Assembly (NCBI GenBank): GCA_025058835.1
Contig: JANXEI010000001.1
Coordinates: 252,561 to 316,560, forward strand
Origin: Acidilobaceae archaeon
GTDB taxonomy: Archaea > Thermoproteota > Thermoprotei_A > Sulfolobales > Acidilobaceae
Direction: 5' to 3'
Length of the DNA stretch: 64,000 nucleotides
Of the stretch, positions 49,603 through 50,624 are shown one piece after another. Made by a program: the position numbers and the translations under genes. The notes under the pieces are model-generated. The model did not search any database. It was not told where the DNA came from and saw only the letters and a list, made by a program, of their open reading frames with translations. Positions within the stretch are counted from its first letter, which is position 1, and each line of letters opens with the position of its first letter.

Positions 49603-49651
49603 CTCAGAAGGAGGCGCTCCTCATCCGTCAGGCGATGGCGTAGACATCATC
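49603..49651 (-). ncRNA. Second candidate C/D box sRNA (weak)
   Basis: Immediately after the first candidate the minus strand shows a C-like box ATGATGT (49650-49644), a 12-nt spacer, CTGA (49631-49628), CGGATGA directly adjoining (49627-49621), a 13-nt spacer and CTGA (49607-49604). The spacing is right, but two of the boxes have mismatches and the D'-C' spacer is zero, so this may be chance. Confidence 0.25.
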
Positions 49652-49709
49652 GGTCAGATAGGTCACCCGTTCTTCACAGCTCAGCACTCGGCAAAGTCCT
49701 CATCCCAGA
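49652..49709 (-). ncRNA. Candidate C/D box sRNA (2'-O-methylation guide)
   Basis: Directly after the ftsY stop the minus strand reads C box GGGATGA (49706-49700, one mismatch to RTGATGA), a 15-nt guide, D' box CTGA (49684-49681), a 3-nt spacer, C' box GTGAAGA (49677-49671, one mismatch), a 13-nt guide and D box CTGA (49657-49654). The 3-nt D'-C' spacer and guide lengths are those of archaeal C/D sRNAs. The D' guide TTTGCCGAGTG would pair with ACTCGGCAAA, which I recall as a conserved stretch of archaeal 23S rRNA near E. coli position ~1665 (unverified). Confidence 0.5.
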
Positions 49710-50624
49710 CTAAAGGGCCCTCAAGCCTAATATTGTGTCCACGTAACTCTCTGGAGAAAACTGCTCTAGATCGTCATAGCTCTGGCCTGTGCCAAGGAAG
49801 AGTATCGGCTTTTCTGTGACGTAAGCAACTGACAAGATCGTCCCTCCCTTCACGTCCGCGTCTGCCTTTGACACGATGACCGCATCTATGCCTATGTGCT
49901 CGTTGAAGGACCTAGCCTGCTCCACTGCATCGTTCCCCGTGAGCGCATCCACCACCAGAACTCTGAGGTCAGGCTTAGCGATCCTCACTATCTTTCTCAT
50001 CTCCTCGAGGAGGTCCTTGTCCACGTGCATTCTGCCTGCCGTGTCAACGAGAACAGCACAGATCCCCTTTGCCCTTGCGTGCTCTATTGCATCGTGGGCC
50101 ACGCTTGCCGGATCGGAGCCGTACCTCCCCTTCAGAATTGGAACGCCCACTCTCCTCGCATGGACCTCCAACTGCTCCTGAGCCCCAGCCCTAAAGGTGT
50201 CTGCCGCCGCTATGACGACACCTATGCCCTCTTTCTTGAGCTTTTGGGCCACCTTTGCTATGGTGGTCGTCTTCCCCACGCCGTTTATTCCGAAGAACAA
50301 GATCACGTACGGCTCCTTCCTGGAACATTTCTGCCTCACGCTGGAAACCAGCTCCGGCGCTGGCTTGAAGTGGCTCAACATCTTCTTCCTAACTGCTGCT
50401 ATGATGAGCTTGTCGGCGCTCTCGCCCCTCGCCACCTTTGCGCCCGTGAGCTCCTTCTGGACGCGTTGCGCAATCCCTTCAGCGACCTCCAACGCCACGT
50501 CCGCGGCGACCATGTCCATGACGAGCTCTTCCAGAACGCCCCTCAACTCCTCCTCGCTTATGTTCCTGTATTTTACCTTATCTGCAAGGGCAGAGAACGC
50601 GTTCCTCAGCAGGTCGAAGACCAA
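49710..50624 (-). CDS. ftsY: Signal recognition particle receptor FtsY
   Basis: GTPase receptor that delivers SRP-bound ribosomes to the membrane, 304 residues. An N-domain of four helices covers residues ~1-95. The G-domain has P-loop GINGVGKTT (residues 112-120), then AADTFRAGAQEQL (G2), DTAGRMHVD (G3) and VSKADAD, the TKxD box with Ser in place of Thr. There is no long acidic A-domain, as usual in archaea. It is the last gene of the conserved archaeal cluster, 2 bp after prefoldin alpha. Confidence 0.97.
   Translation of the reverse strand: MVFDLLRNAFSALADKVKYRNISEEELRGVLEELVMDMVAADVALEVAEGIAQRVQKELTGAKVARGESADKLIIAAVRKKMLSHFKPAPELVSSVRQKCSRKEPYVILFFGINGVGKTTTIAKVAQKLKKEGIGVVIAAADTFRAGAQEQLEVHARRVGVPILKGRYGSDPASVAHDAIEHARAKGICAVLVDTAGRMHVDKDLLEEMRKIVRIAKPDLRVLVVDALTGNDAVEQARSFNEHIGIDAVIVSKADADVKGGTILSVAYVTEKPILFLGTGQSYDDLEQFSPESYVDTILGLRAL

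Follow-up and report, generated by a model that had tools for sequence, protein, structure and literature searches.

The gap behind ftsY raises the question of whether a spacer of 107 nt between convergent genes can encode guide RNAs and, if so, how many and directed at which targets. Within the 64-kb stretch of DNA that was analyzed (the window), this gap occupies positions 49603-49709 and, on the minus strand, contains two complete box C/D sRNAs, designated sR1 and sR2. On one side it directly adjoins the ftsY stop codon TAG (49712-49710); its other end is two bases away from the stop of a convergent macro-domain gene (49601). Read from 49709 to 49603, its first part is TCTGGG-ATGAGGA-CTTTGCCGAGTG-CTGA-GCT-GTGAAGA-ACGGGTGACCTAT-CTGA-CCG, and its second part, after CCG, is ATGATGT-CTACGCCATCGC-CTGA-CGG-ATGAGGA-GCGCCTCCTT-CTGA-G. 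The eight boxes follow the order C-D'-C'-D-C-D'-C'-D, and each D-type box is separated from the following C-type box by 3 nt. A search of both strands of the whole window for C-D'-C'-D series at set spacings returned three matches, all inside the gap: 49703-49654, 49650-49604 and a composite series at 49677-49628. Forty dinucleotide shuffles of the window gave a mean of 0.025 series. We assign a probability of about 0.9 to the reading that the gap holds two tandem C/D sRNAs, most likely cut from the ftsY transcript, with sR1 acting as a dual 23S rRNA guide and sR2 as a tRNA-Leu guide.

The initial annotation had proposed one, perhaps two, C/D box sRNA-like structures at this site. Boxes in order that are unique in the window, conserved, and accompanied by complementarity to rRNA and tRNA uphold this proposal, and two sRNAs are present. 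The description of the second series as weaker did not stand: with two CTGA boxes, an ATGATG box C and orthologues in relatives, it is as good as the first. The proposed guide lengths of 15 and 13 nt depend on the chosen end of box C, and the pairing part of the sR1 D' guide is 10 nt long.

Features of the gap behind ftsY; positions refer to the window
Feature	Position	Strand	Basis
sR1, box C/D sRNA, predicted dual 23S rRNA guide	49654..49709	-	box order, conservation
sR1 box C, ATGAGGA	49697..49703	-	sequence and box search; RTGADG in relatives
sR1 D' guide, CTTTGCCGAGTG	49685..49696	-	TTTGCCGAGT complementary to 23S 1832-1841; C1835 (E. coli 1672) predicted to be 2'-O-methylated
sR1 box D', CTGA	49681..49684	-	sequence and box search
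sR1 box C', GTGAAGA	49671..49677	-	3 nt (GCT) past box D'
sR1 D guide, ACGGGTGACCTAT	49658..49670	-	23S 2118-2126 (UAGGUC-x-CC) best supported as target, with G2121 (E. coli 1983) as predicted site
sR1 box D, CTGA	49654..49657	-	sequence and box search; CCGA in several congeners
sR2, box C/D sRNA, predicted tRNA-Leu guide	49604..49650	-	starts 3 nt past sR1 box D; 14/60 relatives
sR2 box C, ATGATGT	49644..49650	-	sequence, orthologues, box search
sR2 D' guide, CTACGCCATCGC	49632..49643	-	CTACGCCATCG pairs with three tRNA-Leu(NAG); predicted site U44
sR2 box D', CTGA	49628..49631	-	sequence and box search
sR2 box C', ATGAGGA	49618..49624	-	sequence and box search
sR2 D guide, GCGCCTCCTT	49608..49617	-	pairs with AAGGGGGCG of tRNA-Leu(NAA), nt 21-29
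sR2 box D, CTGA	49604..49607	-	sequence and box search
ftsY (SRP receptor)	49710..50624	-	Pfam SRP54 GTPase and neighboring families; likely source of the precursor transcript

Archaeal box C/D sRNAs were defined by a RUGAUGA box C, a CUGA box D and D' and C' boxes in order, guides of 10-16 nt and a short D'-C' spacer. sR1 has this box order, guide length and spacer, together with rRNA complementarity beside its guide boxes that places the target nucleotide five positions from the box, at N+5. sR2 combines ordered boxes with a guide complementary to a stable RNA, tRNA-Leu(NAG), over 11-13 bp. Boxes and guides are conserved in both cases (sR1 in 40 and sR2 in 14 of 60 genomes), and fibrillarin and Nop5 genes lie adjacent on host contig C23. 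At a relaxed threshold, Rfam returned 27 weak matches in the gap, all to C/D-box snoRNA families and on the same strand. None of the 27 reached its gathering score (sR14, 26.8 bits versus 38; sR60, 25.6 versus 50; sR11, 20.6 versus 39), so that membership in a named family is not indicated, and at gathering thresholds Rfam detected nothing but a tRNA in the whole window. Judged by their sequences, sR1 and sR2 are additional members of the known archaeal C/D sRNA class. They add two well-supported guide RNAs with named predicted targets, neither annotated by Rfam, to an uncultured archaeal lineage.

The D' guide of sR1 forms an exact 10-bp match with the organism's own 23S rRNA, with C1835 at N+5. 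By 23S alignment this nucleotide corresponds to E. coli 1672. The match confirms a complementarity that the initial annotation had placed at about E. coli 1665. The target sequence ACUCGGCAAA is invariant in all 17 relatives with readable 23S rRNA. Pairing of the D guide with the organism's own rRNA is shorter, and its target was sought by averaging duplex scores over aligned 23S columns from seven genomes. The top column was E. coli 1979, which places N+5 at 1983, or G2121 in this organism; its lead was modest, at 6.9 compared with 6.3 for other 23S columns. Shuffled-guide p-values were derived from related genomes and are non-independent. When all 107 nt were compared with rRNA without gaps, the highest raw matches were G+C-rich runs that either did not fit the guide register or fell outside mature rRNA; these were rejected.

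Alternatively, sR1 could in effect be a single guide for C1835, with a D guide that has no real target and a chance fit at G2121. The pairing at G2121 in this genome consists of 6 bp, a mismatch and 2 bp; in a scan of this genome alone other 23S sites equal G2121 in score; and D guides differ in other lineages, those of g18/g27 and g19 being suited to other sites. However, the column that places N+5 at G2121 tops the combined profile, and GACCUC is retained in most genera of the family. The other 23S sites topping the own-genome scan are absent from congeners and were dropped. A D-guide target in SRP RNA, suggested by ftsY as the host gene, was set aside in favor of the 23S site. Further, guide and target differ in concert between species. 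At the D target the 23S sequence is CUAGGUCCCC in this genome and CGAGGUCCCC in close relatives, CUAGG being unique to this genome and CGAGG present in the relatives, while the guide reads GACCUAU here and GACCUCA in congener G004; in both cases the guide gives its best pairing with the target of its own organism. This single compensatory change (U/A versus G/C) between this genome and its congeners provides a clean case of a guide RNA tracking a base change in its rRNA target. G2121 also adjoins the D' target across helix 61. We therefore consider a single-guide sR1 unlikely, though the strongest of the alternatives.

The dual-guide reading of sR1 gains a structural aspect from the position of its targets. 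C1835 and G2121 are 286 nt apart in sequence. The target stretches 1832-1841 and 2118-2126 are closely enclosed by a perfect duplex of 10 bp, 1820-1829/2132-2141, which we take to be helix 61; this helix closes domain IV. Such targets, remote in sequence but neighbors in the secondary structure, typify a bridging double guide, an assignment that depends on the D-guide target. The sequence data suggest a dual-guide role for sR1 on 23S rRNA, in which it could bridge the base of domain IV. Its D' guide would direct 2'-O-methylation of C1835 and its D guide that of G2121, and besides marking the two strands flanking helix 61, sR1 may hold them together during folding. Intron-like insertions were observed in the 23S genes of some relatives, directly upstream of the D' target in G002 and G059 (L135, L134) and between the two target sites in G017 and G026 (L129, L128).

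The equivalent locus in relatives was located via FtsY. Among 60 relatives in the order, 40 carry the sR1 pattern with an intact guide, at one copy per genome, compared with 2 matches in total for a reversed-pattern control. Retention of the boxes behind ftsY was found in part. Within the genus (g1, G000-G005), RTGADG..TTTGCCGAG occurs no more than about 25 nt from the ftsY stop in six of six genomes, and in genus g13 sR1 lies 60-170 nt past ftsY; in most other genera it resides at unrelated loci, adjoining a ParA/Mrp-like ATPase in g2, g7, g9 and g14 and in other contexts in the remaining genera. At many of these loci a TTTAA box precedes box C by about 35-40 nt, as expected for a gene transcribed from its own promoter. 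Because most other genera carry sR1 at unrelated loci, its position behind ftsY is best read as a feature of the lineage, not as a conserved coupling to ribosome synthesis. The idea that the supply of these guides is tied to ribosome synthesis is consequently weak: the ftsY link is kept in g1 and g13 but not in most other genera, sR2 lies 15 kb away in G005, and the order-wide comparison speaks against a general coupling of sR1 to the ribosome operon.

The D'-C' spacer of sR1 is 3 nt in this genus and forms stem-loops in other genera, of about 12 nt in g10 and more than 30 nt in g13 (L084, L086, L087, L088, L101). The spacer of L087 folds at -28.8 kcal/mol, below 199 of 200 shuffles, while the folds of L088 and L089 were not significant. 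The orthologue in G005 (L010) has an atypical second half, with ACGG as box D' and CAGA as box D, and a tRNA-like sequence lies approximately 70 nt past it.

The D' guide of sR2 forms 11 bp with three tRNA-Leu of this genome (UAG, GAG and CAG), extendable to 13 bp by two more pairs (one of them G-U), and places U44 at N+5; the two tRNA-Leu(NAA) genes have one mismatch to this guide. GCCATCG with flanking boxes was found in 14 of 60 relatives and once in the control, and the longer TACGCCATCG with boxes is common to most sR2 orthologues. In G049, the anticodon stem carries a base change (GCGGA), and a base of the guide has changed to match it (UCCGC). Overall, the evidence is good for U44 of tRNA-Leu as the predicted D' target, at which sR2 would direct methylation in tRNA-Leu(NAG).

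The D guide of sR2 would pair with the 5' side of the D stem and anticodon stem of tRNA-Leu(NAA), where 9 bp (one G-U) can form with nt 21-29 in this genome. Its sequence varies between species. Nevertheless, when compared with 42 non-Leu tRNAs of this genome, the best tRNA partner was tRNA-Leu for 12 of 13 orthologues, of which 11 suit nt ~21-31 of tRNA-Leu(NAA) and one suits the variable/T arm. The latter, in G014 (L148), carries the D guide GCCACGCAGGC, an apparent switch of site within the same tRNA. The orthologue in G037 had no tRNA-Leu fit on the D side. Since the target is G-rich, which favors chance pairing, and the pair at the predicted methylation position (N+5) is G-U here, the evidence for tRNA-Leu(NAA) as the putative D target is moderate. 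A guide with both arms on tRNA-Leu appears to be an uncommon variant and is the least expected part of the locus. We hold only tentatively, at somewhat less than even odds, that both arms of sR2 and of its orthologues across the order truly act on tRNA-Leu (U44 of NAG; nt 21-31 of NAA) and that sR2 is fused here with a helix-61-bridging 23S guide into a four-guide array. If this were true, a single sRNA would cover the NAG and NAA isoacceptors alike, the two halves of the leucine tRNA set.

The tight layout could alternatively reflect one uninterrupted C/D RNA carrying four guides, or alternative units formed from the middle boxes (C'-D-C-D'), instead of two sRNAs. The spacers are uniformly 3 nt, with sR1 box D as far from sR2 box C as each D' from its C'; the composite series at 49677-49628 is a third box series; and the CCG-only junction (49657-49644) recurs in the nearest relative, G003. 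The CC of this junction is the sole 3' stem strand for sR1 and the sole 5' stem strand for sR2. However, the units are approximately 24 nt apart in G004 and occupy separate loci in G005, which indicates that sR1 and sR2 evolved as two genes, and most relatives carry sR1 without sR2. The arrangement in G004 and G005 thus favors two sRNAs over one array, and we regard a single RNA as improbable, more so than a single-guide sR1. Because CC is the only candidate strand for each, the terminal stems of sR1 and sR2 are mutually exclusive and cannot form simultaneously. The possibility that the gap contains no RNA gene, only chance box-like motifs in a short spacer of convergent genes, is negligible: CTGA and TGA are common words, but 0.025 series are expected per window, sR1 and sR2 are deeply conserved, and their complementarity to the organism's own rRNA and tRNA is exact.

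The gene ftsY is the last of an L39e-L31e-eIF6-L18a/LX-prefoldin-ftsY run, as identified with Pfam. In archaea, about one-quarter of C/D sRNAs overlap a gene at its 3' end, and boxes alone were sufficient for C/D sRNA maturation in the case tested (PMC7994747). Since sR1 starts right at the ftsY stop codon and archaea often show overlaps of this kind (PMC7994747), it is plausible that sR1 and sR2 derive from the 3' tail of the transcript of the ftsY operon. Both would be excised from this tail and protected by L7Ae, Nop5 and fibrillarin. A TATA-like ACAATATTA in the 3' end of ftsY was noted and set aside, as it encodes a conserved DTILGL and is indistinguishable from coding constraint.

Bridging double guides have been proposed by Dennis et al. 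2015 for sR51 of Thermoproteus tenax, sR114 of Ignicoccus hospitalis and sR17 of Nanoarchaeum equitans (PMC4644070, Table 3). Like these, sR1 has two predicted targets that are widely separated in sequence but near each other in the secondary structure (PMC4644070). Provided that an offset of 266, as at A1912/A2178, applies, the T. tenax sR51 site G2249 in the numbering of that study would equal E. coli 1983, the site predicted for the sR1 D guide (PMC4644070). The I. hospitalis sR114 site 1937 is near the sR1 D' site (PMC4644070). sR1 differs in its combination of C1672 and G1983 (E. coli numbering) in one sRNA, which was not found in Table 3 of that study (PMC4644070).

Known archaeal C/D sRNAs that target tRNA include the Pyrococcus guides to position 34 of tRNA-Leu, -Met and -Trp and the Pyrobaculum families of Lui et al. 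2018 (as reviewed in PMC7994747). sR2 resembles them in having a D' guide on tRNA that would direct ribose methylation by fibrillarin; unlike the Pyrococcus guides, it is directed at position 44, not 34. A search of the open literature, with Lui et al. 2018 outside its scope, found no C/D guide to tRNA position 44 in archaea. As reviewed, tRNA guides have one guide on tRNA and another without a target (PMC7994747), whereas both guides of sR2 suit tRNA-Leu. Because the review gives tRNA guides a targetless second guide, a two-armed sR2 would be an exception; it suggests that two-armed tRNA guides are possible in Crenarchaeota, against the summary given for Pyrobaculum.

The Rfam families sR11, sR14 and sR60 have the same architecture as the sRNAs of the gap and differ in their second guides; sR11 carries a similar guide, UUUGCC.AGU. 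C/D sRNA genes that overlap the 3' ends of open reading frames, and clusters of two to three such genes, were described by Tripp et al. 2017 (as reviewed in PMC7994747). sR1 and sR2 are like these cases in starting at the ftsY stop codon and lying in tandem; nothing essential differs, and the 3-nt junction is tight.
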